From positions 1 to 20,434 of IMG/VR virus record IMGVR_UViG_3300021083_000093: DNA of 20,434 nt. One strand, given 5' to 3'. The stretch comes from a virus. Below are positions 3,146 to 16,129 of this stretch, one piece after another. Position 1 is the first letter of the stretch. Each line of letters opens with the position of its first letter. Position numbers and translations under genes: made by a program. Below the pieces are notes generated by a model, which saw only the letters and a program-made list of their open reading frames with translations, had not been told where the DNA came from and searched no databases.

Positions 3146-4627
3146 CTAGCCGTACTGCTTTTTGGTGCCGGTGACGAAGGTCAGGTTGATGGCGGTGCAG
3201 TTGCACCACTCGCCGTCGGCGAGCACGATCCTGCCGTCAGATCCGACGGTCGTTCCGCCCAACAGGCCGCCCGGGCCGACGGTATAGCTGACCACCCCGG
3301 AGACCGGAGAGACCGCCGTCAAGACGGTCCCGGCCGGAAGGTTCTGGGCTGCCCCGTTGGTCTGGGCGGTTATGGTAATCGTGGCGGTTTCCGATTCCTG
3401 GAATGAGATACTTCCCGTGCTGGAGCCGCCGGAGCTTAGATTATACAGATTTCCGCTGGCATCCTTCAGAACGGTGCTGAGCGGAAGGGATGTCATGATC
3501 GCCGCGACGACGATGAGACTTCCCGTTGCGGTGGTATGGGTCACAATGTTGATCGGGGCCACCTCATAGACGCCCGGGACCGACAGCGCAGTGCTCCATT
3601 CCGAGGGGACGAGATCGTTCGAGATCGAGCTGGCGAGATCAAGGGCAAGCTGTACCGCGGCAGCCTGAGCGCTTGCCTGCGCAGTGGAGGACGCATCGGC
3701 GAACAGCGTCACGGTGGCGGTGACGGTATAGTCGATCTCCGTCACGGCGTACGCCGCCACGGTGTCGCAGAGCGGCCTGACGGTGGTGGGTGCGCATGCC
3801 GCCAGCACTTCGGCCAGCACGGCCGGGGATGCGATCGCGATGCTGTTCGGAGCAGCGGCGGGCTGCTGGAGAACCGGGCCGGTCAGGACATAGATCGCGA
3901 TCTGCCCGGGCGCCGGCGTTATCACGTTGGCGTCGATGATCGTTGAATCTGCCGACGCCGCGAAGAACCGGTAGGCGCCCTCGGGGCCGGCCGAACTGTA
4001 CTTGTTCGGGGACTGCTGGATCCTGGCCCGGTAGTGATCGTCGGTTTCCGGATCGGACCCGTCCGATGTTGTTGTCGTGTTGGTGATGCCCGCCAGCAGG
4101 CTGTTGCCGCCGATGATGACGCTGACCTGGCCGGGCAGATAGCCGTTCGCGGTTGATCCAGCAGTCTGGGCCGAAGCCGCGACGGTCAGGACGGTGGTCC
4201 CGGCCGGGAACGTGAGAGCCGCCGAGGTCAGGAAGACCTGCGCGCCGTCGGTCGTTCCGACCTGGCTGTTGGCCGGCAGCGTGTAGGGAACCGTCAGGGC
4301 GTTCGCCAGCGTGGCCTGGAGCGTCGTGGTGGACGGCTGGGCCGCGAGCCGTGGCGTGTCGGTGAGCTGGCCGATATAGTCCAGCACCGGGTAGGACGCG
4401 AAGGCCAAGAGGTTCTGCTGGCCCGTGTATTGGATGGCGTTCCGGACCAGTGTCTCCCGGTAGGCATAGAGGTTGATCAGCAGGCGTTCGACCTGGGCCG
4501 GGTAGAGGGTCTTGCCGCTGGCCTGCTCGAACGTCGCGATCATGTCGTTCAGGATCGCGAGCGGATCGAGACCGTCAGAATCGGTCAGGAACGACGGGGC
4601 CGGCAGCGTGGTGATCGAGGCGCTCAT
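3146..4627 (-). CDS. J: Baseplate wedge protein J (Baseplate_J family), enlarged
   Basis: The product has 493 residues, against about 300 for P2 gpJ. Residues 20-95 form the helical N-terminus (ERLLINLYAYRETLVRNAIQY, then FASYPVLDYIGQL). Residues 100-190 are the beta-domain with LPANSQVGTTDGAQVFLT and AGSTANGYLPGQV, and PETDDHYRARI follows near 193-203. Residues 210-367 form the C-terminal core, ending around the VPGVYEVAPINIV strand. A segment at 368-465 (STVLKDASGNLYNL...AQTNGAAQNLPAGTVL) repeats the pattern of the first beta-domain before the final strands (GRIVLADGEWCNC). The protein should form the baseplate wedge with gpW and gpI. GGAGAC lies about 8 bases before the ATG. Confidence 0.88.
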   Translation of the reverse strand: MSASITTLPAPSFLTDSDGLDPLAILNDMIATFEQASGKTLYPAQVERLLINLYAYRETLVRNAIQYTGQQNLLAFASYPVLDYIGQLTDTPRLAAQPSTTTLQATLANALTVPYTLPANSQVGTTDGAQVFLTSAALTFPAGTTVLTVAASAQTAGSTANGYLPGQVSVIIGGNSLLAGITNTTTTSDGSDPETDDHYRARIQQSPNKYSSAGPEGAYRFFAASADSTIIDANVITPAPGQIAIYVLTGPVLQQPAAAPNSIAIASPAVLAEVLAACAPTTVRPLCDTVAAYAVTEIDYTVTATVTLFADASSTAQASAQAAAVQLALDLASSISNDLVPSEWSTALSVPGVYEVAPINIVTHTTATGSLIVVAAIMTSLPLSTVLKDASGNLYNLSSGGSSTGSISFQESETATITITAQTNGAAQNLPAGTVLTAVSPVSGVVSYTVGPGGLLGGTTVGSDGRIVLADGEWCNCTAINLTFVTGTKKQYG

Positions 4628-4645: not shown

Positions 4646-4882
4646 TCAGTGCGCAGGCGCATCGGCGGGCGGGGCTGCGTCAGCCTTCTTCGCTGTGGCC
4701 TTGAGCGTATCGTTCTCGGCCCGGAGCGCAAAGATTTCCGTGCGAAGTTCGACCGTCTCCTGGGTCAACTGCATGACCGTAGCGGCCAGCGCTTGCATCT
4801 GCGGAGAGGGGGGCTGTGGGACGGTTTGCGCCGCCGCGATGACGGGAACGAACAGGATGGACGCGATGATGAAACTACGCAT
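4646..4882 (-). CDS. Small exported coiled-coil protein of unknown function
   Basis: The product has 78 residues. Residues 1-18 form a compact Sec signal peptide (MRSFIIASILFVPVIAAAQT: Arg at position 3, hydrophobic core, A-A-A before Q). A Pro-rich linker follows. Residues 28-63 have heptad-like spacing (MQALAATVMQLTQETVELRT, then IFALRAENDTLKA) and probably form a trimeric or dimeric coiled coil. The tail is Ala/Pro/Asp-rich. TGAGGAG precedes the ATG, overlapping the stop of the 700-residue exported protein, so the two are probably translated together. No family is recognised. It could multimerise with its exported neighbour in the periplasm. A spanin-like role is possible, but there is neither a transmembrane anchor nor a lipobox to support it. 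Confidence 0.55.
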   Translation of the reverse strand: MRSFIIASILFVPVIAAAQTVPQPPSPQMQALAATVMQLTQETVELRTEIFALRAENDTLKATAKKADAAPPADAPAH

Positions 4883-4891
4883 GGTGGCTCC

Positions 4892-6994
4892 TCAACAGTG
4901 CGTAACAATGCCTTTGACAGAAGCAAAGCTGGATGTGGGTGTGCCGGAACAGGACACGCCCGCGCTGGTACCGGAGGTGAACGACGCAGAAGTTAGTCCG
5001 TTGGGGAAATTGACCACTCCCGTCCCCAGAGCGGTAATGCTGAGGTTCGCGTTCGTTGCGGGGGACGCACCGGCACCAACGACGGTTATGCCCGGGGCTG
5101 CGCCTGCACTCCCCACTATTTCGACGCGGGAGTTGTAGTTAGCGACAGTTGGACCGACCATGAAGCTGGGGCCAGCATATTCCGATGTCGTGAAGGAACT
5201 CTCGTCCCACAGGATGCCGTTCGACACGGTGAGTTCGGTATCCGTGTTGGATGTCGGGTAGTGGTCGTCCGTTATGAACGCATAGGTCGCCAGTTGCGTG
5301 GAGGCCGAAACCGCATTCTGCAGATTGAACCAAATGCCTTTGTAGTAGCCAGGTAGCGCGGTGCTTCCCTCATTCGTTATCTCGACGGCGGCAATGGCCT
5401 TGCTTACGTTGGGCCCGATCGTGGACACCTCGATCGAGGCGTCGCCGGGGATGATCCCGCTATGCAAGTTCGTGACGGCCACGACGGCCCCGTGTGCCGC
5501 CCCGCTGGTCTGTCCCGCGATGGTCTGCGCCTGGAACACCCCTCCGAATGATTGGGCGCCGTTGACGCCGTTGACGCCCAGGCCGGCGACGCCGTACCCG
5601 TCTCCGCCGGCATTCGTCACCGTCGTGGCCCCGTAGACGCAGATCCCGCCGGATGCCTGCGGCAGTGTCATTACGCAGCCGTAGCCGGCGACGCCATTCG
5701 GGTAGGTCGTGCTGTTCGGCGAATAGCTGCCCTGTAGGCTGTTTACGAACAGCGTGGCCCCCGCAGAGCCGTTGCCTATCCAATCGGTCAGTATATCGCC
5801 ACCGTAGCGGGTTCCGCCTGTATAGGTTCCGCTATTCGTCTCTGCCGTTGACGTCATCGCCAGGGCCTGCACAGACGTCAGGCCAGCCGAGACGGTGACC
5901 GTTCCGAGGAACGCAGCGTTGCCGCCCGCCTCGAACGTGCTGCCGGCGACGAACGGGCTGGCGGCATAGATGGCCGCCGTTCCCTTGGCGGTCAGGTTCA
6001 GCTCGACGTTTGTGTCCGCCCCGATCGCCGCGACTTGCGTGGGCGCTCCGGTAACACTTGGCACCAGCGCCACGCCATTGACCGCGTTGGCGATCGCCTG
6101 GATGCTGGCATCAAGGCCACCGGCCTGGTTCACGAACGAGACGCCACCGTCCTGGAACTGCATGCTGATGGAATTCGCGGCTGTCGCCACGGTACTGGTG
6201 ATGTTGGGTCCGGCCACGTCAGAGGCGTCATGCCACTGGATGATGTGGCCCTTGGCGAGCCGCATCGCATACCCAAAGCCGCTGTAGTTGGTGAGCGCGT
6301 TGGCGCCGACAATGATTCCGGTCTGGAAGCGCGCCCCGTTGTCCTTGATGCCAATCGCCTCAGTGGCATCGGTGACGCCGGCATGCGAGCCGCCGGAGGC
6401 CAGCCAGAGGGCGATCGTCGAACCATAGACCTCCGGTGAGCCCGGAGACGTGGCCGTGGCCTGCGGGCCGAAATTCACGGCATCGATCTCGCGCCCGAAC
6501 GCGAGCCCGGAGGAGCCCGACAGTGTCTGCGCCTCATCGTATCCCGCGTAGACCGAGAGGTGGCGGCCGCTTGCGGCGAACACGTCGTCATTGAACGCGA
6601 AACCAGCAGTGCCAATCGTAGTCTCCAGCGAGCCGTAGCTGTTGCTGAGCTGCGAGGCCCGGGAGGCTGTCGTCAGGGCGATCTGCCCGTTGGGCGACAG
6701 AACGGCGGCATTCGCGCCGGTCACGGGCCAGGCGAGCTGATAGGCCGACCCGCTGGTCAGCCAGTCCGCGGCATAGAGGTGCGTCGTGCCGCTCACCCCG
6801 AGCCCCGTGAACGCGCCGGCCGCGTTGTAGTCCTGCTTGGACGCCCACGCATGGTCCCACTGCGAGATGGACCATATCGCCCCTTGTGCCGGGGACTGTC
6901 CGATGCCGAAGCCGTTTGTGGGAGCCGGTATTGACTGTGCTGCTGCCGGCAGCGGGCCGATCAGAATCGCGAAAATCGCGAGAAGTTTGCGCAC
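4892..6994 (-). CDS. Large exported beta-rich fibre-like protein (signal peptide, about 700 aa)
   Basis: The GTG at 6994, two bases after the gpW stop and ten bases after AGGAG, gives MRKLLAIFAILIGPLPAAAQ as the N-terminus. This is a textbook signal peptide with an A-A-A/Q cleavage site. A longer frame extends back to 7378 but overlaps gpW and has no signal. The mature part resembles phage fibre and structural proteins: WLASGGSHAGVTDATEAIGI, G-A-D-T-N-V-E-L-N-L...KGTAAIY, a second similar unit near the end (ASPATNANLSITALGTGVVN), and a C-terminus of the GVSCSGTPT...GIVTHC type. It is nearly free of charged residues and rich in G/S/T/A. It sits between gpW and gpJ, where P2 has no gene. A fibre or decoration role is likely from composition. 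Export by Sec is the odd part. Confidence 0.6.
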   Translation of the reverse strand: MRKLLAIFAILIGPLPAAAQSIPAPTNGFGIGQSPAQGAIWSISQWDHAWASKQDYNAAGAFTGLGVSGTTHLYAADWLTSGSAYQLAWPVTGANAAVLSPNGQIALTTASRASQLSNSYGSLETTIGTAGFAFNDDVFAASGRHLSVYAGYDEAQTLSGSSGLAFGREIDAVNFGPQATATSPGSPEVYGSTIALWLASGGSHAGVTDATEAIGIKDNGARFQTGIIVGANALTNYSGFGYAMRLAKGHIIQWHDASDVAGPNITSTVATAANSISMQFQDGGVSFVNQAGGLDASIQAIANAVNGVALVPSVTGAPTQVAAIGADTNVELNLTAKGTAAIYAASPFVAGSTFEAGGNAAFLGTVTVSAGLTSVQALAMTSTAETNSGTYTGGTRYGGDILTDWIGNGSAGATLFVNSLQGSYSPNSTTYPNGVAGYGCVMTLPQASGGICVYGATTVTNAGGDGYGVAGLGVNGVNGAQSFGGVFQAQTIAGQTSGAAHGAVVAVTNLHSGIIPGDASIEVSTIGPNVSKAIAAVEITNEGSTALPGYYKGIWFNLQNAVSASTQLATYAFITDDHYPTSNTDTELTVSNGILWDESSFTTSEYAGPSFMVGPTVANYNSRVEIVGSAGAAPGITVVGAGASPATNANLSITALGTGVVNFPNGLTSASFTSGTSAGVSCSGTPTSSFASVKGIVTHC

Positions 6995-6996
6995 GG

Positions 6997-7506
6997 TCAG
7001 AATGCTCCTGTCCCAAAGGCGCTTGCCCCGAACACGAATCCCGAGGCTCGACTGGGCGCCGCTGTTGCCGCGGCGCCGACCGTCACCGTCGTGCTCTGCA
7101 CGGTGTTGCCGATCACGATCTGCGGTGCCGTCCCGGCCAGCTTCAGGACCCAGCTCACCGTGACATCGAGGGCACCCGGACTTGCTGCACTGACGGTGCT
7201 GGTCACAGACTTCACCGTGATCCGGGGTTCCCAGGTCGCCAGCGCGTTCGTCACCGTCCCGGCGATCGCCGACTGCGCGGCCTGGATTGGCTGGTCGAGG
7301 TACTGGGTGATGTCGCAGCCGAACGTCGGTCGGAACGGGTCCTCGCCGGGGATGGTGGTGAGGATGATGGCGATGCACTGGTTGACGTCATCGAGCGCCT
7401 GGACGATCGAGCCGATCCCGGAGCCGGTCCCGCCGCCAGCCGTGGCGTCGAGTTCCAGCGACCAGTCGGCCGAGGTCACGTCGGCCAGGGTGGCGGTACC
7501 GGACAT
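6997..7506 (-). CDS. W: Baseplate wedge protein W (T4 gp25-like family)
   Basis: The product has 169 residues. I chose the ATG at 7506 because AGGGG lies 6 bases before it. A GTG at 7509 is the alternative. Residues 28-60 (IGSIVQALDDVNQCIAIILTTIPGEDPFRPTFGCDITQYLDQP) carry the conserved gp25/gpW core. It holds a helix, the L-T-x-x-G-E-x-P-F-R-P-x-F-G-C signature, and then a helix near NALATWEPRI and the strands TVKSVT...LDVTVSWVL. It joins gpJ and gpI in the wedge that triggers sheath contraction. The C-terminus (about 125-169) is a low-complexity extension beyond the usual length. It lies directly downstream of gpV, as in P2. Confidence 0.88.
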   Translation of the reverse strand: MSGTATLADVTSADWSLELDATAGGGTGSGIGSIVQALDDVNQCIAIILTTIPGEDPFRPTFGCDITQYLDQPIQAAQSAIAGTVTNALATWEPRITVKSVTSTVSAASPGALDVTVSWVLKLAGTAPQIVIGNTVQSTTVTVGAAATAAPSRASGFVFGASAFGTGAF

Positions 7507-7509
7507 CAC

Positions 7510-8127
7510 TTACCCCTGCGGACCAGAAGTCGTCGCTCCGCCACTCTGAACATCGCCGTGCACGTGCTGGGTGGCGCTGATCCCGATGGCCACCATGTCG
7601 CTGTCGCTGACGATCTGGCCGTGGACCTTGATGGTGCCGTCGCCGTTCAGCTTGATGTAGGAGCCGGCCCTGTCCTGCAGCAGCACGGTGCCATCGCTGG
7701 CCAGTGCAATTTCATTGCCGAGCGGGGTATTGATCGTGGCGCTTCCGCTGGTACCAAGCTGGACCGTGAGGGTGTGGGCCGCGGTGTCGTAGACGATGCT
7801 GGTGCCGTCGCTGTAGTCGGTCCTGTCCTGGGTATTGGTCGCGGCCTCGACTGGTGCGTCGACGCTCGACCACAGCTCGCCGTCGATGCTGCCGTTCTCG
7901 TCGTGCTCGTCGAGCGAGCACTTCACCTGCGCGCCGATCTCCGGTATGTGCCAGTGCTTCGTGCCCTGGGTGCCACGGGTCAGGACCTGGAGCCACCCGC
8001 TCTCGATGTTGTCGCGATCCGGGAACCGGACGCGCACGAATCCTTTGTACTGGGCCGTCCCGAGCGCGCTCACGATGCCGCTTCGGAACGTGACGTTCCG
8101 CGATTGTGCCCAGTATTTATCTGCCAT
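7510..8127 (-). CDS. V: Baseplate spike protein V (membrane-piercing tip)
   Basis: The product has 205 residues, close to P2 gpV (211). Residues 10-95 form the OB-fold part: IVSALGTAQYKGFVRVRFPD, WLQVLTRGTQGTKHWHIPEIG, and DEHDENGSIDGELWS. A beta-helical stalk follows with repeated strands (TLTVQLGTSGSATINTPLGN, then GTVLLQDRAGSYIKLNGDGT). The end has HVHGDVQSGG, with the H-x-H pair at 188-190. In P2 this motif binds an iron ion at the spike apex. The trimer is expected to puncture the outer membrane when the sheath contracts. It starts 3 bases after the gpD stop. The call is secure. Confidence 0.92.
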   Translation of the reverse strand: MADKYWAQSRNVTFRSGIVSALGTAQYKGFVRVRFPDRDNIESGWLQVLTRGTQGTKHWHIPEIGAQVKCSLDEHDENGSIDGELWSSVDAPVEAATNTQDRTDYSDGTSIVYDTAAHTLTVQLGTSGSATINTPLGNEIALASDGTVLLQDRAGSYIKLNGDGTIKVHGQIVSDSDMVAIGISATQHVHGDVQSGGATTSGPQG

Positions 8128-8130
8128 CGC

Positions 8131-9216
8131 TCAGGTCCCCGGCGTTACGCCCGGCGAAGATGCGGCCTCGGTAATGTCCGCCCCGACGGTCTGGGCCGCC
8201 GTGCCGGTCACCACGATATGCAGCGACAGCGCCGTGACCCACCCCTGGGTGGCGAGCCGGTGTTTGGCTCGCTCAATCATGTAAGTGCTGCTGTCGTACG
8301 TACCGAAGCCCGAGACGTTCACTGTCATGCCGGCCCGATAAGTCATGGTTCCAGGCAACGAGATCTCGCCCGTGACCTTGCTCGCGTTGTGCTCGTGCAA
8401 GTAGGCTTGCGCGCGCAGTTGCGCCTGCTGGCCGTTCTCGACCCGCTCCACCGTCTTGAGGGTGTCGGCCGTTGGCACGTTGGTGGCGGTCGCGTGGCCG
8501 GTCACCAGCGCCTTGGTCGCGGGATCGAAATAGCTGACCTGCGCGGCCTTGTAGGTCTGCCGGCCGAGCGTCTGGTTCTTGAAGTCGAAGTTGATCACTC
8601 CCGTGCGGGAAATCGTCCCGACCGGCGCCACCGCTTCCAGTGCCGGGTGGCTGTAGAAGACCAGCTTGTTGTCCCGCACATTGAACTCGTAGTTGTGCGT
8701 GCTGGCGAGACGATGCAGGAAGGCAAGATCGGGTTCCAGCGCCTGGGTGACGCGCCCGTAGGGGACATTCGGATCGACGGCATCGCCAACCACCGTGAAG
8801 CCGTGCCGGGCCGCCACCGTGCCGGCGATCTGCAACAGGGTCTGGCCCTCATAGGCGGCACTATTCGGGGTGCGGAGCGCCTGCGTGAGGCCGGCCTGGA
8901 TAGCTTTGATGTGGAACTGGTCGGGCGGCCCCTTGAGGCCAAACTCATCGATCTGGAACGTCCCGACAGACTTCAGGGCGCTGCCGGCGTAACCGAGCGA
9001 GAGGTCGATCGTATCCGTGATGGTGGGCGGATTGGCCTGCATCTGCTGCAGGGCATCGGTCAGCACGATCTCGATCGAGTTGGCCTGCTTGCCGACGGCC
9101 TCCTCGTAGGTGATCTCGCTCAGGAAGGTGGCGAGCCGGCGCGTGATGTCGGTTCCGTTGTACAGCACGCGCCAGTCCGGCACCGGCAGCGCGAGGGATA
9201 TCCCGGCGCCGCTCAT
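8131..9216 (-). CDS. D: Baseplate hub protein D (phage late control D family)
   Basis: The product has 361 residues (P2 gpD is 387). It starts with PVPDWRVLYNGTDITRRLATFLSEITY, the characteristic opening of gpD, then DTIDLSLGYAGSALKSVGTF. Residues 120-200 hold the hub core with LLQIAGTVAARHGFTV, RVTQALEPDLAFLHRLASTH and YEFNVRDNKLVFY. The C-terminal part has AQAYLHEHNASKVTGEISL and the GMTVNVSGFGTYDSSTYMIE strand set. It forms the trimeric hub that binds the spike gpV and the tube (T4 gp27-like). It lies between the gpU/gpX block and gpV. The call is secure. Confidence 0.92.
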   Translation of the reverse strand: MSGAGISLALPVPDWRVLYNGTDITRRLATFLSEITYEEAVGKQANSIEIVLTDALQQMQANPPTITDTIDLSLGYAGSALKSVGTFQIDEFGLKGPPDQFHIKAIQAGLTQALRTPNSAAYEGQTLLQIAGTVAARHGFTVVGDAVDPNVPYGRVTQALEPDLAFLHRLASTHNYEFNVRDNKLVFYSHPALEAVAPVGTISRTGVINFDFKNQTLGRQTYKAAQVSYFDPATKALVTGHATATNVPTADTLKTVERVENGQQAQLRAQAYLHEHNASKVTGEISLPGTMTYRAGMTVNVSGFGTYDSSTYMIERAKHRLATQGWVTALSLHIVVTGTAAQTVGADITEAASSPGVTPGT

Positions 9217-9220
9217 GCGA

Positions 9221-9760
9221 TCAGCCGCCGCTCTGCGCGATGCAGACGTACTGCAGCTTGTTGCCGTTTGCGGACGTCTGGGTCGTCGAGATGGCGGTCG
9301 CCGAGGTCACGTAGCTCTGCGAGGCCAGCGGAGTAGCGATCCAGCTCACCACGCAGTACGGGGCCGCGTTGTAGGGCTGGGCGAAGGTGATGACGCAGCC
9401 GGTCGCGGAAGTTCCCATGGTCACGATCCCGGCGGTGTCGGTGCCGGCGATCGAGGGCGAGGTGCCACAGCTCGACAGGGTCGGGGCCGCGCTCTGGGCC
9501 GAGACCAGGTGGGCCGGGGCGGAGGTCGTGGTGCCGAACGCCTGGCCGGCGAGCGCGGCGGGGCTGGTGACGCCGTTGTTACCGGCAAGCCCGATGCCCA
9601 CCGTGTTGGCGGTGGTCGGCGGGGTCTGGTAGATGACGGCGCGCAGCTGCCCGGTCGCGGGCGACTGTGCCTGCGTCGCCACGGCACCGCCGAGGCAGCC
9701 AATCAGGACCGCGGCGGCGGCGAGTTTCAGCACTGCGGGGAAGCGGAAGCGGAAGCGCAT
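9221..9760 (-). CDS. Exported protein or lipoprotein of unknown function inside the tail operon
   Basis: The start at 9760 is set by AGGAGA six bases upstream and by a clear signal sequence. A longer in-frame extension to 9997 overlaps gpX and is not protein-like. The 179-residue product begins with an unusual R-F-R-F-R-F n-region, followed by a hydrophobic stretch (VLKLAAAAVLIGC). The LIGC at 19-22 fits a lipobox, and an A-T-Q-A site at 28-31 is an alternative for signal peptidase I. The mature part is Ser/Thr/Ala-rich. Its C-terminal 75 residues (TAGIVTMGTSATGC, NAAPYCVVSW, LQYVCIAQ) have paired cysteines in beta-strands, a pattern I have seen in phage-associated exported proteins. It lies between gpX and gpD, where P2 and Mu have no such gene. 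The function is unknown. Confidence 0.6.
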   Translation of the reverse strand: MRFRFRFPAVLKLAAAAVLIGCLGGAVATQAQSPATGQLRAVIYQTPPTTANTVGIGLAGNNGVTSPAALAGQAFGTTTSAPAHLVSAQSAAPTLSSCGTSPSIAGTDTAGIVTMGTSATGCVITFAQPYNAAPYCVVSWIATPLASQSYVTSATAISTTQTSANGNKLQYVCIAQSGG

Positions 9761-9828
9761 CGTGGTCTCCTGGATCTGAGGGGAGGGGGAAGGCGTTTCT
9801 GAAGCTGAGGCGTCGGCGGGCGCGGGGC

Positions 9829-10113
9829 CTAGCCCCAAGGCGTCGTGCTGGCCGGCGCCGCTGGCGGCGGCAGAATTCCGCCCTGGATCACGGTGCCCTG
9901 CGGGATCTGGCAGACGATCGGGACGGCCGGGTTGGCCATCACCAGGACGTTGATCTGCGTCGGATCGCCGTAGAGCTTCCACGCCACGGTGTCCCATCGC
10001 TCATTCAGGCCGGTCGTGTAGACGGCGTTCGGGGCCGCGGGCGCCGGCGTGCCGGATGCTGGCAGCAGCCCGTAGGCGAGGGCGAACTCGGCCGCCGTCA
10101 TGGGTGTGGTCAT
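9829..10113 (-). CDS. X: Tail protein X (LysM-like)
   Basis: The product has 94 residues. The ATG at 10113 overlaps the gpU stop (ATGA), which fixes the start. A longer frame to 10305 lies inside gpU. Residues 31-80 match the gpX/LysM pattern: YTTGLNERWDTVAWKLYGDP, then INVLVMANPA and a Pro/Gly-rich strand with IPQGTVIQGG. P2 gpX is 67 residues. The extra N-terminal 30 are Ala/Pro-rich. It is thought to act in tail assembly or to contact peptidoglycan at the baseplate. The gpU-gpX-gpD order is that of many P2-like phages. Confidence 0.85.
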   Translation of the reverse strand: MTTPMTAAEFALAYGLLPASGTPAPAAPNAVYTTGLNERWDTVAWKLYGDPTQINVLVMANPAVPIVCQIPQGTVIQGGILPPPAAPASTTPWG

Positions 10114-10643
10114 GCCGACCTCGTGGCTGTGGACAGTGGCGCGTCCGCGAAGTCTCCGGCCACCGGGGCCGACGCGGGCGCTGGCGCCTGGAGCGGGGTT
10201 GCACCAGGGCCGGCCGTCGTGGTTCCGAGTGCGTTGGCGTTGGTCTGGACGGTGGGAGCCGAGGCCGGCAGCGTACCGGCCCATTGCAGCAGCGACAGTT
10301 CGCATCGCGCCGCGATCAGGGTGCCGTCATCGGCCCGCCAGACGTCCCGCTGCCGCAGGTTGGTGATCACGTAGTTGCCCTTGTTCTCGACCCCGATCAC
10401 CATGGGCGCGGGCTGATGCAGGGTCCGCTGCTGCTGCAGGTCGGCGATCGCGGACGTGGGATCGCACCACATCTGGTGCAGATAGATGCCAAGCTCGATC
10501 CTGGTCAGGTCATCGAAAATCCACTGCAGAACGGGCGGGCCCTTGATGACGTCGATCTTGGCATAGTGAGACTCGTCCTCAAACGACAGCTTGTCCGGGC
10601 CGCCCAGAACTGTGAACCCGATACCGCCGAATGCGCCGAACAT
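10110..10643 (-). CDS. U: Tail protein U (P2 gpU family)
   Basis: The product has 177 residues. The first 120 residues follow P2 gpU: MFGAFGGIGFTVLGGPDKLS, the SFEDESHYAKIDVIKGPPVLQ region with a K-P-x-L-Q-like block, then LTRIELGIYLHQMWCDPTSA and PMVIGVENKGNYVITNLRQR. The last 55 residues are a low-complexity Ala/Thr/Pro tail not seen in P2 (159 residues). gpU is a tail completion/terminator protein acting after the tape measure sets the length. AGGGGAA lies 7 bases before the ATG, and there are only 18 bases to the tape measure stop. The family call is secure. Confidence 0.88.
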   Translation of the reverse strand: MFGAFGGIGFTVLGGPDKLSFEDESHYAKIDVIKGPPVLQWIFDDLTRIELGIYLHQMWCDPTSAIADLQQQRTLHQPAPMVIGVENKGNYVITNLRQRDVWRADDGTLIAARCELSLLQWAGTLPASAPTVQTNANALGTTTAGPGATPLQAPAPASAPVAGDFADAPLSTATRSA

Positions 10644-10661
10644 CTGCCGGTTCCCCTGCGA

Positions 10662-12770
10662 TCAGTAGGCGGGGCTGAAGCGGCTGTCGCCGAAGTTCAG
10701 CCGCGCATCTTCGTCGGCCGAAGTCGGATTGAGTCTCTGCATCAGGCTCCGGTGCACGTCGGCCACAGCCGCCGCAGCAGCCTGCGGGGCCGTCGCGCCG
10801 GTCACGGTCTGGTTGATCGTGATGTTCGCCGGCGCGCTGACCGAGTTGTTCACCGTGGCAGATACCGGCGCCGGCGAGGCCGCCGGAGTGCCGCCGGCCC
10901 AGGTGGGCAGCACGGACCGCGCCGCGCCGGTGACGGCCCCGACAGCCGAGGACGCGGCCCCGCTCACCGCGCTCTTGACGCTCTTGGCGGCTTCCGAGAT
11001 GGCCTTGACCTTGTTGTCCATCCACTCGGCCGCTTGCCGGACATCTTCGATGACGGGTCTGATCTTGTCCCACGCGGCCTGGAAGACCCCGACCACGGCG
11101 TCCCACATGGTCTTGAAGAAGTCCGAAACGGGTTGCCATGCCCCGACGATCGCCGTCGCGGCTTCAGCGAAGTAGCGCTTGATATCCTGCCAGTGGTCGT
11201 AGACCAGGACCGCGGCATCGACGAGCCAACCGAACGGCCCCGCGATGGCGGCCACGATCGCCATATGGTTCCTGATCCAGTCCACGGCCTCGGAGAAGTA
11301 CCGCTTGATGTCCTCCCAGTGGTTGTAGATCGCGATCGCGGCCTCGCTGATGCCGCCGGTCATGATCGCGAGCGCGGTCCTGATCCCCTCGATGTGCTCC
11401 CGGCACCAGGCCACGCCTTCCGCGAACCATTGCTTGATCTTGTCCCAATGTTCGTAGATCTCGAAAGCCGCAACCGCGATGGCCGTTACCAGCAACCCGA
11501 TCGGGTTCGCGGTCATCGCGACTTTGACGGCCATCATGCCCGCCTTCACCGCCACGAGGGACGAGTGGACGATGTAGAAGGCGCCCCCGAGCGCGATGGC
11601 GCCCGATGCGAGACCCGCGATCGCGGATGCGAACTCGGTGATGTGAGGGTGCTCCTCCGCGAACTGCCGCACTGCCCCGAGCACGTCGGTCAGGCCGTGG
11701 GCGAAGTCGGCGATCGGAGCCAGCAGCGGCGTCCCGAACGCGACCGCCAGGTCCGTCACGGCGTTATGGAGGTTGGCGAGCTGTGCCGCGAGGGTTTCCT
11801 GTTGCTTCGCTGCTTCGGCGGCAGTCGAGCCCGCAGCGTTCGCCAGGTCCTGCGTGCCCTTGGTGATGTCCCCGACATGATCGACCATCAGGGCCAGGAG
11901 CCTGCCGGACGGCCCGAGCTTCTTTTCAAACGCCTCCAGGGCGGCCGGGCCGCGATCGTGCAGATGCTCAATCGTCGTGGTCAGATCGATCGTGCCGTCG
12001 CGGAAGTGATAGAGCGCGAACCCCGCCTCGCGGATTGCCGGGACGCCGTCCTTGCCGGCCTTGAGCATCGCCTCCGCGAGCGTGCCGAAACTCACGCCGG
12101 CGTTGCGCGCGGCACCGGACTTGCTCAACGTCTCGACCGCCGCCAGCGACTGATCGATGTTGAGGCCGAGTTGCTTCGCGGTACCGGCGGTGTTGGCGAG
12201 CTCGCGCGCCATCTGCTGGGCGCCCCCGACGTTGGGCATCGCCTTCACCATCGCGGTGATCTTGTCGGCGACGTCCTGCATCCGTTCGGCGACTGGCTTG
12301 GCCTGGTCGCCCATGGTCTCCATGGCGGGGCCAAGGATCTTGGAAGCTCCCTCGGCCGAGGTGCCGATCACGTTGGCGAACTGCGCCGTCGTGGCCATGG
12401 TCTCTTTCGCGGCGTCGAGCGAGCCCGTGTACTTGGACATCGCGGTCTGGGCGGCCGTGATGTCCTCGGCGCTGCGGGCATAGGTGGTGGAAAGGCTATC
12501 TGCCTGTTCCTGCGCCTCCTTGAGCTGGTCGGCCGTCGCGCCGGTCGCCTGTGCGAGCCGCACCTGCGCCTGCTGCATTTCCTCGGCTGGCCCGATGACG
12601 TGCTCCAGCACCTCGTAGCCGACGAACGCCGCCGCGGCCGCCTTGCCGATCCTGCCGACCGATTCCTTGAATCCCTCGGCATGCTCCTTGATCTCGTTCA
12701 GTGGCCCACTGAACTTGTCCCGGAGTTCGACGAGGAACTGCAGGACGCCGGCATTGCTTTCGTCAGCCAT
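10662..12770 (-). CDS. T: Tail tape measure protein
   Basis: The product has 702 residues and is predominantly helical. Residues 1-60 carry a typical start (VELRDKFSGPLNEIKEHAEG). Residues 60-350 hold the conserved TMP core with AQATGATADQLKEAQEQADS, ANVIGTSAEGASKILGPAM, and LAEAMLKAGKDGVPAIREAG. A hydrophobic helical stretch (378-436) is followed by three tandem units of the type Y-x-H-W-x-x-I-K-x-(W/Y)-F at about 439, 482 and 524. The C-terminus has a low-complexity strand (ANITINQTVTGATAPQAAA). The tape measure sets tail length and threads through the tube. The start codon overlaps the GpE-type frame, and the gene is followed directly by gpU. Confidence 0.93.
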   Translation of the reverse strand: MADESNAGVLQFLVELRDKFSGPLNEIKEHAEGFKESVGRIGKAAAAAFVGYEVLEHVIGPAEEMQQAQVRLAQATGATADQLKEAQEQADSLSTTYARSAEDITAAQTAMSKYTGSLDAAKETMATTAQFANVIGTSAEGASKILGPAMETMGDQAKPVAERMQDVADKITAMVKAMPNVGGAQQMARELANTAGTAKQLGLNIDQSLAAVETLSKSGAARNAGVSFGTLAEAMLKAGKDGVPAIREAGFALYHFRDGTIDLTTTIEHLHDRGPAALEAFEKKLGPSGRLLALMVDHVGDITKGTQDLANAAGSTAAEAAKQQETLAAQLANLHNAVTDLAVAFGTPLLAPIADFAHGLTDVLGAVRQFAEEHPHITEFASAIAGLASGAIALGGAFYIVHSSLVAVKAGMMAVKVAMTANPIGLLVTAIAVAAFEIYEHWDKIKQWFAEGVAWCREHIEGIRTALAIMTGGISEAAIAIYNHWEDIKRYFSEAVDWIRNHMAIVAAIAGPFGWLVDAAVLVYDHWQDIKRYFAEAATAIVGAWQPVSDFFKTMWDAVVGVFQAAWDKIRPVIEDVRQAAEWMDNKVKAISEAAKSVKSAVSGAASSAVGAVTGAARSVLPTWAGGTPAASPAPVSATVNNSVSAPANITINQTVTGATAPQAAAAAVADVHRSLMQRLNPTSADEDARLNFGDSRFSPAY

Positions 12771-12876
12771 GGGGGGTGCCTGGTTTGGCTTCGCAGTCCC
12801 GCAGTGCCTCGGCCCAGAAGAAGATGTCGCCGATCGTCATGCGGCTCAACTCACTGGGCTGGATGTTGGCCCGCAC
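12763..12876 (-). CDS. GpE-type small tail protein (P2 E' equivalent), overlapping the E stop and the T start
   Basis: A GTG at 12876 shares its first base with the E stop (TAGTG) and opens a 37-residue frame ending in TGA at 12763-12765, inside the first codons of the tape measure. The product reads VRANIQPSELSRMTIGDIFF then WAEALRDCEAK. This fits the GpE/E' family, which has a short Pro-x-E-L-x-x-M start and a D-x-x-x-W-A-E-x-A helix. GGGAG lies 4 bases before the GTG. The same frame is open upstream to 12933 in the -1 frame relative to E, so it could instead be reached by ribosomal frameshifting from E. In P2 that makes the E+E' chaperone. Both routes fit the sequence. The family is clear from motif and position. 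Confidence 0.72.
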   Translation of the reverse strand: MRANIQPSELSRMTIGDIFFWAEALRDCEAKPGTPHG

Positions 12877-13202
12877 TAGACTCCCGAGGAGGGCGCGGCT
12901 TGGGGCTCGGGAGCCTCCATGGGGGAGTCGTCTTCATTCAGCTTCTGGAACACCTTGCTGATCCGGGTGATGACTCCAAGCGGCAGGCGCCGGAATGTGT
13001 CGTAGGTCATCTGGACGCCGTCGATCGCGACGCAGCGGGCCGTCAGCGCATAGTACTGCTCAACCGATGAGGCATCGGCAGGGGCGGACTTGAGGGCCTG
13101 GATGCTGTCGTCACCGGTGGCTTGGCGGATCACCGCGACACGGCCGCGCGATAGCGGCACCCTTGTGGTCGGGACCGTGGGATCGGGGACTTCAACCATC
13201 AT
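12876..13202 (-). CDS. E: Tail assembly chaperone E (P2 gpE/Mu gp41-like)
   Basis: The product has 108 residues. AAGGA lies 9 bases before the first of two adjacent ATGs (13202, 13199). The arrangement is that of the phage tail assembly protein family between tube and tape measure. It has a proline-rich start and a strand with PLSRGRVAVIRQATGDDSIQ. A helical segment follows (YYALTARCVAIDG), then TYDTFRRLPLGVITRISKVF and an acidic, proline-rich tail. The final helix-forming block with L-P-x-x-x-I matches the gp41/E layout (T-x-x-x-F-x-x-L). It should keep the tape measure soluble until the tube polymerises around it. The overlap with a GpE-type frame supports the assignment. Confidence 0.82.
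   Translation of the reverse strand: MMVEVPDPTVPTTRVPLSRGRVAVIRQATGDDSIQALKSAPADASSVEQYYALTARCVAIDGVQMTYDTFRRLPLGVITRISKVFQKLNEDDSPMEAPEPQAAPSSGV
12918..12927 (-). promoter_or_regulatory. Candidate -1 ribosomal frameshift site in gene E
   Basis: The minus strand reads CTCCCCCATG at this point. The -1 frame relative to E has a TGA at 12936-12934 and is then open through the whole GpE-type frame, so a shift must occur between there and the E stop (12878-12876). A proline tRNA on CCC could re-pair with CCC one base back, giving a fusion of about 146 residues. It is not a perfect X-XXY-YYZ heptamer, and TCGGGA near the stop is an alternative. The assignment is tentative. Confidence 0.35.
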
Positions 13203-13226
13203 GGCGGAGTTTCCTTGTGTTGCTGA

Positions 13227-13751
13227 TCAGGCGCCGAGGTTCGCGCGATACTGTGCGAGCTGATCGACGCCATTGACGACGTATTGATTCGAGAGCGAGT
13301 CGAAGAGCAGGATCTGCTGGCCGGCGAGCGAGTAGTCGATGTGGTAGACCGACGCGACGCTGCTGTACTCGGCGTTGGCCTGCGCCTTGAGGTCGATCGG
13401 CCCGGGGTCCTTGAAGATCACGGTCATGTTGCCGGAGACCGGCAGATCCTGGATCAGCCCCGTTGACGCGATGACCTGTGCGTCGGCCATGAACGTGAGG
13501 GCCGTCATGCCATTGGTGTTGTTGATGTTGGTCAGGACATCGGCATCGAATGACGTCCACTTCAGGGTCGTCTCGAGCTTCTCGAACCCGACCGGCACCT
13601 CGATCTGGCCGGCCATGCCGAGCGACTTGTAATCGACCATGACACGCTTTGGCTGTGGGATCTTGAACTCCGCCATTCGGCCGAGCAGGTCTGTACCGTT
13701 CAGCAGCACGTTGCAGTTCCACAGCGTGGTCACAGAAATGAGCTGCGCCAC
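13227..13751 (-). CDS. FII: Major tail tube protein (FII family)
   Basis: The product has 174 residues, near P2 FII (172). It begins with VTTLWNCNVLLNGTDLLGRM and EFKIPQPKRV, and continues with the conserved AGQIEVPVGFEKLETTLKWT segment. Then comes a region with ALTFMADAQVI and VIFKDPGPIDLKAQANAEYS. The C-terminal IDYSLAGQQILLFDSLSNQY and NGVDQLAQYRANLGA are typical of the family. It stacks as hexameric rings to form the inner tube driven through the envelope. It lies directly downstream of the sheath, as in P2 and Mu. The call is secure. Confidence 0.94.
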   Translation of the reverse strand: MAQLISVTTLWNCNVLLNGTDLLGRMAEFKIPQPKRVMVDYKSLGMAGQIEVPVGFEKLETTLKWTSFDADVLTNINNTNGMTALTFMADAQVIASTGLIQDLPVSGNMTVIFKDPGPIDLKAQANAEYSSVASVYHIDYSLAGQQILLFDSLSNQYVVNGVDQLAQYRANLGA

Positions 13752-13807
13752 CGTACTCTCCTATGTCTGGGTTGCGTGGCGCCGGGGTGCCACCGTTCCT
13801 TGGCGCG

Positions 13808-16129
13808 TTACGTGGAGGACTGCGAGGACGTCAGGCTGTTCAGCAGCGAGGTGTCGACCGTGAAGTTGTAGGTGATGTCCTCGGCGGGGGGCGGCGGCAT
13901 CAGGTTGATCGCGAAGACGATGATGCCGGCCGCGAGCTGGGTCGCGGGGTTATCGCCCGAGTTGAACGAGATCTTGGAGCCCGGCAGCAGGCCGCCCTGC
14001 CGGATGACGTCGCGCAGATAGGCGTTCACCGAGCCCAGCACCGAGTTGATCAAGCCGCTGGTGATCGGCAGATCGACGAACTGCAGGCTGGCCTGCTGGA
14101 TCGATACCTCGATGACGTCGAGCACCATCCGGACGGCCAGGAATGTCCTGGCGTCGGTGTAGGTCGGGTATGCGGACGACCGGTTGCCCCAGGTCCGCAA
14201 GCCGGTCGCGAAGGCGTTGAAGACTGTGATGATCCCGGCCGCGTTCAGGTTGTTGGTGTCGCTGTCCTGATCGGTCGCGGACATGTAGATCGGCACGTCG
14301 GGGCCGGTCGGATCGGTCAGCACGGTGTTGCTGGGCGAGTACCAGAACCCATTGTTGACGATCCTGGACGACCAGGCCCCAGCCACGAGGGCGGAATACG
14401 GGGCCTCGGCCGTGGCGTCGACCACGGGATTCACGACCACGCCCGCGGCGTTGATCATCGTGGCGGTCGGATCGATACCCAGATCCTCGAATTTCTCGCA
14501 CGGGAAGCAGTGGCCGACCCGATAATCCGTGATCCCGAAGGCTGTGGTCGTGTCCGAACGACTTGCCAGCGCTGTCGCGACACTGACATTGGGCGCGGAA
14601 TCATCGAGCGAGATCCCGCGCAGCGTGTTGGCAATCACCTCCAGGGCGGACGCTACGGGCCGATCCTGCGAGCCGGCGTTGCCGGCATAACCGGGCGCGA
14701 TCAGGATCCGCGGCGTGAAGCCGAACTTGCTCATTGCGAGCTGCCACGCCTGCATGCCCGTGTATTGGCCGCCCGTCACGGCCCCGATCAGGTCGGAGTC
14801 TTGGACTTGCGAGGGATCGCAGTACGCGTACGAAACCGAGAGGGCCAGGCTCGGCGCGATGGCACCGCCGGACTCGGCATAGATCAGGCCGTTGACGTAA
14901 TCGACCGTATAGTCGGTGTTCTCGACGTAGGTCGGCGATCCGCCGGCCGCCTTCACCACGACGGTGCTGGGGGGGCCGGCCCAGGTCATGTTGAAGGTAG
15001 CGCCCGTCCCCGCGCCGCTGCTGCTGGCCTGCGCAACCGGATTGGCTGGCACTGCCGTGTAGGAGCCGGCGGTCGACACGGTAGCGGCCAGGATGCCGAA
15101 TACGGCGGCGTTGAAGGTAGCGCCCGTCCCCGCGCCGCTGCTGCTGGCCTGCGTGAAGGTGGCGCTGTTGGCCGTGTATTTGCCCGGATTGACGACCGAG
15201 AAGGTGTTGACGCCCATGACCAGCGACAGTGCGGCGCCGGTCAGGCCCGCACCGGTCACCGGCTCGTCGGTCAACGTGGTCGGGTTGACCGTATAGGCGC
15301 CGGCCACCGAGATGGACCCGACCGCCGTGATGGCGCCACCGGAAACGGTCACGCTGGCCTGGAACTTCGTGCCGGAGCCGGTCGTGCCCGTGACGGTCTG
15401 GGTGCCGTTGGTGCCACCGGTGCCGCCCGCCGCTATGGTGGCGGACACGACCTGAGTGGTATCGACCGTGACCTGGCCCGCGACCGTCGAGGTCCCGCCC
15501 GCGAGCACGATCCCGGCGCCCGGCGCATAGCTGTGGGTGGCGGCGCCGCCCGGGGCGTTGAGGCCGAGCGAGACGATCTGCGTGGACGCTACCGTCAGGA
15601 CCGTCGCCGGGATCATGGAGGTGCTGGGGGTCCCGCCCGCGAGCGTCACGGTGTCGCCGTGGGCATAGCTGTGGTTCGTCTGGCCACCCGGTGTCGCGAC
15701 GACATCGACGGCCGCGGTGCTGAGCGGCGTGTTGGGCAGTCCGGGGCCGATCAGGCCCATGTGGCCGACGCTGACGTACTGGGTCCCGCTGGCCGGCATC
15801 GCGAGCGTCTGACCACTGACCTGGGTGTTGTGGATCAGCGGATTGAAGACGTTGACGGCGATGACCTGACCAACGCCCTTGGCGCCGGCCTGGTCGAGGA
15901 TGTGCTGCAGCGCGTACGGGATCGAGTAGCCCTCGATCATCGGCCCCAACATGCTCTGGGCCGACTTGCTGTTGACCAGGAAGGGCTGGTTGGGGGCGGG
16001 CGGGGTGCCGGACTGGACGTCCCAGCTTGGCGCCGACCCGACCAGGCCGATGACCGCAGCCTTGACGGACTGGATCGACACGCCACCGGCCAGCGTCTCG
16101 GTGATCGTGATGCCATGGAAAAAGCTCAT
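13808..16129 (-). CDS. FI: Tail sheath protein (FI/gpL family) with large repetitive insert
   Basis: The product has 773 residues. P2 FI has about 396 and Mu gpL about 495. Residues 1-137 carry the sheath opening (FFHGITITETLAGGVSIQSV, SVKAAVIGLVGSAP) and HILDQAGAKGVGQVIAVNVF. Residues 391-773 carry NTDYTVDYVNGLIYA, FTPRILIAPGYAGNAGS and PVASALEVIANTLRG. The segment then runs through NNGFWYSPSNTVLTDPTG, VFNAFATGLRTWGNRSSAYP and VNAYLRDVIRQGGLLPGSKI, the conserved C-terminal sheath core. Between them sits an extra region (about 138-390) made of two kinds of Gly/Thr/Ala-rich beta-repeat. The sheath contracts to drive the tube. The insert probably projects from its surface. GGAGG lies 5 bases before the ATG. 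Confidence 0.93.
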   Translation of the reverse strand: MSFFHGITITETLAGGVSIQSVKAAVIGLVGSAPSWDVQSGTPPAPNQPFLVNSKSAQSMLGPMIEGYSIPYALQHILDQAGAKGVGQVIAVNVFNPLIHNTQVSGQTLAMPASGTQYVSVGHMGLIGPGLPNTPLSTAAVDVVATPGGQTNHSYAHGDTVTLAGGTPSTSMIPATVLTVASTQIVSLGLNAPGGAATHSYAPGAGIVLAGGTSTVAGQVTVDTTQVVSATIAAGGTGGTNGTQTVTGTTGSGTKFQASVTVSGGAITAVGSISVAGAYTVNPTTLTDEPVTGAGLTGAALSLVMGVNTFSVVNPGKYTANSATFTQASSSGAGTGATFNAAVFGILAATVSTAGSYTAVPANPVAQASSSGAGTGATFNMTWAGPPSTVVVKAAGGSPTYVENTDYTVDYVNGLIYAESGGAIAPSLALSVSYAYCDPSQVQDSDLIGAVTGGQYTGMQAWQLAMSKFGFTPRILIAPGYAGNAGSQDRPVASALEVIANTLRGISLDDSAPNVSVATALASRSDTTTAFGITDYRVGHCFPCEKFEDLGIDPTATMINAAGVVVNPVVDATAEAPYSALVAGAWSSRIVNNGFWYSPSNTVLTDPTGPDVPIYMSATDQDSDTNNLNAAGIITVFNAFATGLRTWGNRSSAYPTYTDARTFLAVRMVLDVIEVSIQQASLQFVDLPITSGLINSVLGSVNAYLRDVIRQGGLLPGSKISFNSGDNPATQLAAGIIVFAINLMPPPPAEDITYNFTVDTSLLNSLTSSQSST
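14990..15033. repeat. 44-bp exact direct repeat, copy 1 (sheath insert)
   Basis: This stretch is identical to 15110-15153. The spacing of 120 bp is a multiple of three, so on the minus strand both copies encode the same QASSSGAGTGATFN segment, once in each of two neighbouring 40-residue units of the sheath insert. Identity at DNA level, while the surrounding bases differ, suggests recent duplication or gene conversion. Confidence 0.95.
15110..15153. repeat. 44-bp exact direct repeat, copy 2 (sheath insert)
   Basis: This is the second copy of the repeat at 14990-15033. The flanking bases differ on both sides, so the identity is limited to 44 bases. Recombination between the copies would remove or add exactly 40 residues in frame. 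Confidence 0.95.

Follow-up and report, generated by a model that had tools for sequence, protein, structure and literature searches.

Why would a tailed phage carry genes for exported proteins inside its tail operon, when the assembly of tailed phages is taught as wholly cytoplasmic? The question is raised by the window, i.e., the whole stretch of 20,434 nucleotides of DNA from a soil phage analyzed here (IMG/VR record IMGVR_UViG_3300021083_000093), in which an initial annotation proposed signal sequences for three genes at 4646-4882, 4892-6994, and 9221-9760, referred to below as SP1, SP2, and SP3. The reading preferred here, with a probability of roughly 55%, is that the window encodes tail-fibre-type proteins exported through the Sec pathway along with a co-exported companion, and that the fibre bearing a conserved N-terminal module docks on virions at or after lysis.

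Locus and Operon Context

The structural operon in the window is of the P2/Mu-like myovirus type and lies on a single strand (minus) with leftward transcription, in the order sheath (13808-16129), tube (13227-13751), tape measure (10662-12770), U, X, SP3, D, V, W/gp25 (6997-7509), SP2, SP1, J (3146-4627), I, fibre genes, and a tfa-like gene. Pfam and PHROGs searches confirmed the neighbours, namely Phage_tube for the tube, PhageMin_Tail for the tape measure, GpU, GPW_gp25 for the baseplate wedge protein W (1.7e-18, with phrog_43 at 3.8e-23), Baseplate_J for J, and Tail_P2_I, and returned weak matches to Phage_tail_X, GPD, and base_V; for SP1, SP2, and SP3, Pfam and PHROGs gave nothing convincing. 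X (ending at 9829) and SP3 (9760) are separated by 68 nt, SP3 (9221) and D (starting at 9216) by 4 nt, W (ending at 6997) and SP2 (6994) by 2 nt, SP2 (4892) and SP1 (4882) by 9 nt, and SP1 (4646) and J (starting at 4627) by 18 nt; with gaps of 2-68 nt, the operon-like placement of the three genes between core tail and baseplate genes, as first proposed, is borne out. Since the phage also possesses ordinary signal-less fibre genes (1158-2385) and the tfa-like gene, SP2 need not be its receptor-binding protein.

Four other metagenome contigs hold near-identical copies of the window phage, as does a 62-kb contig that was binned with an Acetobacteraceae MAG from bog, and because of this binning the host probably belongs to the Acetobacteraceae. 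The 62-kb contig was also considered as a prophage; this was dropped, as the contig looks like a nearly whole phage contig.

Export Signals and the SP3 Protein

The three open reading frames are present on the minus strand at the above coordinates, and each start is preceded at 6-10 nt by a Shine-Dalgarno-like AGGAG/GAGGAG. Signals were scored with a rule-based Sec/signal peptidase I scorer, which looks for a positive n-region, an uncharged h-region, and an A-x-A-like site at a threshold score of 3; on a region of E. coli K-12, it found seven of nine exported proteins and called one of 22 others, and codon-shuffled N-termini pass at a background rate of 1.4%. Three of the 23 window proteins are picked by the scorer, and these are exactly SP1, SP2, and SP3, all in the tail operon, so the signal sequences first proposed there, at the chosen starts, hold up.

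SP3 (9221-9760, minus strand) is a predicted-exported protein of 179 aa with a signal score of 4.34, whose signal peptide spans residues of about 1-28 (9677-9760) and includes a lipobox-like LIGC at residues 19-22; given this LIGC, processing by either signal peptidase I or II would be possible. Its C-terminal domain (residues 90-179, 9224-9493) contains four conserved cysteines (98, 122, 136, and 173) and occurs in about 30 viral contigs representing several phage types. The last 90 residues are modeled by AlphaFold2 with a pLDDT of about 83-97, and the best structural matches of the domain include H-type lectins, R-pyocin fibre feet, AP22 gp53, and the LKA1/Sf6 tailspikes, but with Z ≤ 6.0 and Foldseek E 0.04-0.5; the end of SP3 may thus be lectin/fibre-tip-like. 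Within 385 genomes of one bacterial class, the SP3-domain profile matched the window's own phage alone. In the SP3-type domains of three loci (L048, L050, and L052), the second conserved cysteine is changed to Trp and an extra cysteine lies just before the first, which suggests a re-paired disulfide.

Among the SP3-domain relatives with a complete 5' end, 25 of 29 have a signal (score ≥ 3); two of the others (L040 and L044) fall slightly under the threshold, and two (L038 and L051) are without a signal. The signals and linkers of these relatives differ in sequence while the domain stays, and because the relatives keep a signal despite unrelated letters, the signals are not due to chance. Such varied signal letters in front of a retained domain are, as far as sequence can tell, the pattern expected of selection for export and not of common descent of the letters, and the predicted Sec-type export of the SP1, SP2, and SP3 products is well supported. 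Some of the SP3-domain contigs are podovirus-like, and in these the SP3-type gene comes, by eye, directly after an N4-gp56-type capsid-like gene. Signal-bearing genes tend to cluster side by side in SP3-domain loci; seven loci (L030, L031, L033, L034, L036, L045, and L049) show an adjacent signal-bearing pair, consisting of an SP3-type protein and then a second family in which the sequence behind the signal starts with VNI(S/T)G or a comparable string.

SP2 and Its Small Companion

SP2 (4892-6994, minus strand), a predicted-exported protein of 700 aa with a GTG start, can be divided into a signal peptide (residues 1-19, 6938-6994) that the scorer would have cut between PAAA and QSI, a mature N-terminal module QSIPAPTNGFGIGQSPAQGAIWSISQWDHAWASKQD (6827-6937) that is proposed as a docking module, and a middle domain (residues 67-400, 5795-6796) that is common to signal-less tail spikes and fibres. 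For instance, residues 94-371 matched (E 6e-7) a Stappia phage SI01 protein that is annotated as a tail spike and is without a signal, and the middle domain recurs in signal-less Acetobacteraceae prophage fibres (L262-L266, E 1e-14 to 1e-101). The fibre of L262 sits between a wedge-like gene and J, which is the slot of SP2 in the window. By its predicted domain content, SP2 is a tail-fibre/spike-type protein; its AlphaFold2 model was unusable (pLDDT 37). Another myovirus-like contig carries a signal-bearing fibre (L162:3490-5025) between gp25-like and J-like genes, the same slot as that of SP2/SP1. L007, whose relative of SP2 is without the docking module, carries two more large signal-bearing fibre genes (9587-11929 and 11960-14266), of which the first shares parts with the Alteromonas phage XX1924 tail fibre and the Erwinia phage AH03 tailspike.

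SP1 (4646-4882, minus strand) is a predicted-exported companion of 78 aa with a signal score of 4.52, a signal peptide at residues 1-18 (4829-4882; predicted by the scorer to be cut between IAAA and QTV), and a coiled-coil-like segment. Small signal-bearing genes also lie behind the fibres of L007, L015, L037, L041, and L057/L163, the last of which gave a weak SP1 relative (E 0.004 in a small database), and homology among these companions is weak or only presumed; small genes behind signal-less fibres (L262 and L270) are without a signal. The signal status of fibre and companion is concordant throughout, six pairs being positive for both and two negative for both. SP1 may be regarded as a small companion that is co-exported with the fibre.

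Mature N-Terminal Module and Neighbouring Tag

The module has the consensus Q[ST][VIM]PNGxIxxGx[VI]W[ST]xxQWxxAWxSKxD and is found in SP2 and about 14 other fibres of differing tail types and tips. About a dozen of these fibres were gathered by a DNA scan for W[ST]xxQWxxAW together with a profile search, and two more came from Acetobacteraceae genomes. In most of the roughly 15 fibres, the module begins directly at the predicted cleavage site; the only signal-less module fibre, in L132, has its start Met where the mature N-terminus would begin. Beyond the module the fibres are unrelated: the L145 fibre ends in Peptidase_S74 (6.6e-11), the L060 fibre has an SP3-type domain, and the L081 and L103 fibres have pectate-lyase-like and C1q-like tips, respectively, both below the curated cut-off. 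A shared module with an unrelated remainder is the sequence pattern of a fibre attachment end with exchangeable tips. A search of 50,697 phage records and 72,556 plasmids for the module gave no real match, just chance ones in Staphylococcus. Another N-terminal type, QCNGQFGAGQICGNPTG, with its own cysteine pair, was observed directly behind the signal in L028 (3669-5270), with no match among phage records.

A virion protein of the module phages, usually the one encoded next to the fibre, carries a terminal tag with the motif FxFGx[SGT]xF; in the window, this FG tag is FVFGASAFGTGAF at the C-terminus of W/gp25 (7000-7038, minus strand), the proposed docking site. Of 13 distinct module phages, 12 have the tag, and the contig of the thirteenth stops inside the fibre gene; none of the 189 loci without the module has it, in a count that covers all non-redundant loci fetched (1.73 Mb). 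The association has a Fisher p of 3e-21, which includes some near-duplicates and should be read as "very small". The regular expression was built after some of the loci had been seen; four of them (L058, L080, L081, and L132) had not previously been looked at for the tag. The carriers comprise the gp25 wedge (the window and L081), an SU10-like adaptor (L103, L058, and L167), a T7 gp11-like tail tube (L165), a neck terminator (L145), DUF2612 (L153), a hub-like protein (L025), and other proteins of no named family (L057, L080, and L132). Where the tag is C-terminal, its gene directly precedes that of the fibre, and where it is N-terminal, its gene directly follows, with the exception of L145; the tag of L132 lies inside the upstream gene at some distance from its end. 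Owing to this position beside the fibre gene, a single contiguous cassette could carry both tag and module.

Among 53 distinct adaptor relatives, the tag is present in two only, both being seeds of that set, and it is absent from two other adaptor relatives that have a signal-bearing but module-less neighbour; this comparison indicates that the tag is not part of the adaptor family and goes with the module rather than with the signal. The tag query found none among the 50,697 phage records. Three loci with divergent modules (L172, L250, and L251) showed no FG tag within the stretch read, which counts against the docking reading, as does the absence of the module from SP3 and from the SP2 relative in L007.

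Cysteine Pairing

The number of cysteines is even in 12 of 15 exported fibres, and the gaps between cysteines have a median of 16 aa within a pair versus 109 between pairs (permutation p ≤ 5e-5). The cysteine content amounts to 1.09% in the exported fibres versus 0.25% in signal-less ones, the latter being a small set (n = 9) with a cysteine-rich member, L270. The predicted pairing, which concerns the mature part of the SP2-type fibres, fits folding in an oxidizing periplasm.

Proposed Mechanism and Alternative Explanations

The signals, the shared fibre domains, the module, the tag, the co-occurrence of module and tag, and the cysteine pairing are the sequence-level support for the following course of events. 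SP2 would be made late alongside the baseplate genes, cross the inner membrane, and be cut by signal peptidase, after which it would fold and form disulfides in the periplasm, perhaps with its co-exported partner SP1. The mature N-terminus (QSIP...IWSISQWDHAWASKQD) would then serve as the docking module: as the envelope breaks at lysis, SP2 would meet the newly assembled particles and dock on the aromatic-glycine tag FVFGASAFGTGAF that ends W (gp25), so that the virion would gain an additional receptor-binding fibre. SP3 would be a second exported fibre-tip-like protein, one without the docking module. Because tailed virions assemble in the cytoplasm, docking would have to be late, and the dilution of the partners upon lysis counts against it. 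A broader proposition is held tentatively, at close to even odds but short of them, namely that in several tailed-phage morphologies receptor-binding fibres pass through the host Sec system and acquire disulfides in the periplasm, and that the virion is completed outside the cytoplasm by a portable pair, i.e., the WTxxQW module and an FG tag grafted onto a neighbouring neck, adaptor, or baseplate protein.

The main rival, which is considered unlikely though with real claims to attention, is that the exported receptor-binders never join the particle; acting at the periplasmic or the outer face, they would bind the receptor used by their own phage or cleave it, thereby closing infected or lysogenic cells to further phage and keeping released particles from being caught on debris, much like lambda Lom, T5 Llp, or T4 Spackle. 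Signals, paired cysteines, and receptor-binding-type domains would all suit such exclusion, as would SP3, with its possible lipobox and no module, to which exclusion could apply as well. However, exclusion leaves unexplained both the co-occurrence of the module with a tag on virion proteins and the signal-less fibre of the same domain in the same slot between W and J, and the Pfam and PHROGs scans of SP1-SP3 showed no match to a known exclusion family. It is doubtful that the hydrophobic N-terminus serves instead as an N-terminal element of a fibre assembled normally in the cytoplasm: signal-less relatives in the same operon slot imply that cytoplasmic assembly of this domain works, but the segment varies freely in sequence yet keeps its n-, h-, and c-regions with A-x-A sites, the cysteines are paired, and the start of the conserved module coincides in most fibres with the predicted cut, and in the signal-less L132 with the initiating Met. 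Lysis or release functions inside the tail operon, with SP1 being spanin-like, are scarcely credible, for although SP1 is small, predicted to be exported, and coiled-coil-like, and P2-type phages keep lysis genes among their tail genes, SP1 contains no cysteine and hence no lipobox (an o-spanin feature), and a candidate endolysin (59330-59917) and a candidate lipoprotein gene (58321-58893) were seen by eye elsewhere on the 62-kb contig.

Relation to Known Systems

T5 Llp and phi80-type Cor are exported, membrane-associated phage proteins encoded beside tail or receptor-binding genes; they differ from SP1-SP3 in that no fibre domain and no docking module are described for them. Lambda Lom, a signal-bearing protein encoded between the tail spike and tail fibre genes (PMC12309495), is likewise exported from beside tail genes and thereby gives exclusion a precedent, but it is membrane-associated, has no fibre domain, and has no docking module described. 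T4 Spackle (PMC7677548) shares with the present proteins a phage origin, a cleaved signal for the periplasm, and a disulfide, but it is the product of an early gene, a helical lysozyme inhibitor of 75 aa, with no sequence match to SP1-SP3 found. With Lom and Spackle at hand, the statement that no described system resembles this locus was too strong.

Known tail spikes and fibres (the Stappia SI01 tail spike, S74-type fibres, and gp53-like/R-pyocin tips) resemble the exported proteins in the middle domain, the S74 chaperone in L145, a possible lectin-like tip fold, and the position in the tail operon; they differ in the Sec signal, the paired cysteines, the QSxPNG...WTxxQW module at the mature N-terminus, and the FG tag on a neighbouring virion protein of the exported fibres. 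An export signal in front of a phage-fibre or tailspike fold is also seen in the Bdellovibrio MAT fibres, which have a conserved beta-rich domain of about 130 aa directly after the signal (PMC10769870) and are likened by description, and in Pantoea WceF (PMC7949094); these are host-encoded and serve the bacterium, whereas SP2 and SP3 are phage-encoded inside tail operons. Exported proteins beside tail genes, and exported phage-like fibres in bacteria (PMC10769870, PMC7949094), are thus already known. The open-licence literature yielded no described Sec-exported tail fibre of a tailed phage, and neither it nor the 50,697 phage records yielded one with a docking pair; a cultured example likewise failed to turn up. 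The initial view that export from inside a tail operon is unusual was right; two literature leads, gp063 of Caulobacter phage Circe and gp38 of E. coli phage SD286, proved unrelated. By their predicted signals, exported fibre-type proteins are widespread, occurring in many unrelated uncultured phages across tail types. Among the functions initially offered, the coating of released particles comes nearest to the evidence, because the conserved module at the mature N-terminus of the exported fibre goes together with a terminal tag on a virion protein encoded next to it; a function in release is highly improbable, and the fibre/spike-type receptor-binding identity, as opposed to that of unrelated envelope proteins, was missed, as was the spread across tail types.

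If export and attachment to the particle at lysis do occur, virion assembly would proceed partly outside the cytoplasm, and disulfides would be available to the fibres. Moreover, a virion could acquire the fibres of a different phage that shares its cell or lysate, and moving one fibre-plus-tag cassette could exchange host range. If the fibres are not on the virion, they would be receptor-binders that phages export, a large class so far unrecognized. Together, module and tag provide a sequence-based means of naming phage fibres whose present annotation is hypothetical.

Just beyond the left end of the window, a near-identical contig carries a fourth signal-bearing fibre-like gene (L252:2060-2998, G001:C85) that begins MKRLALILAALWPTLALAQAPTAGP..., in a region where the assembly has ambiguous bases; because this gene belongs to the same phage, the number of three exported genes is a minimum.
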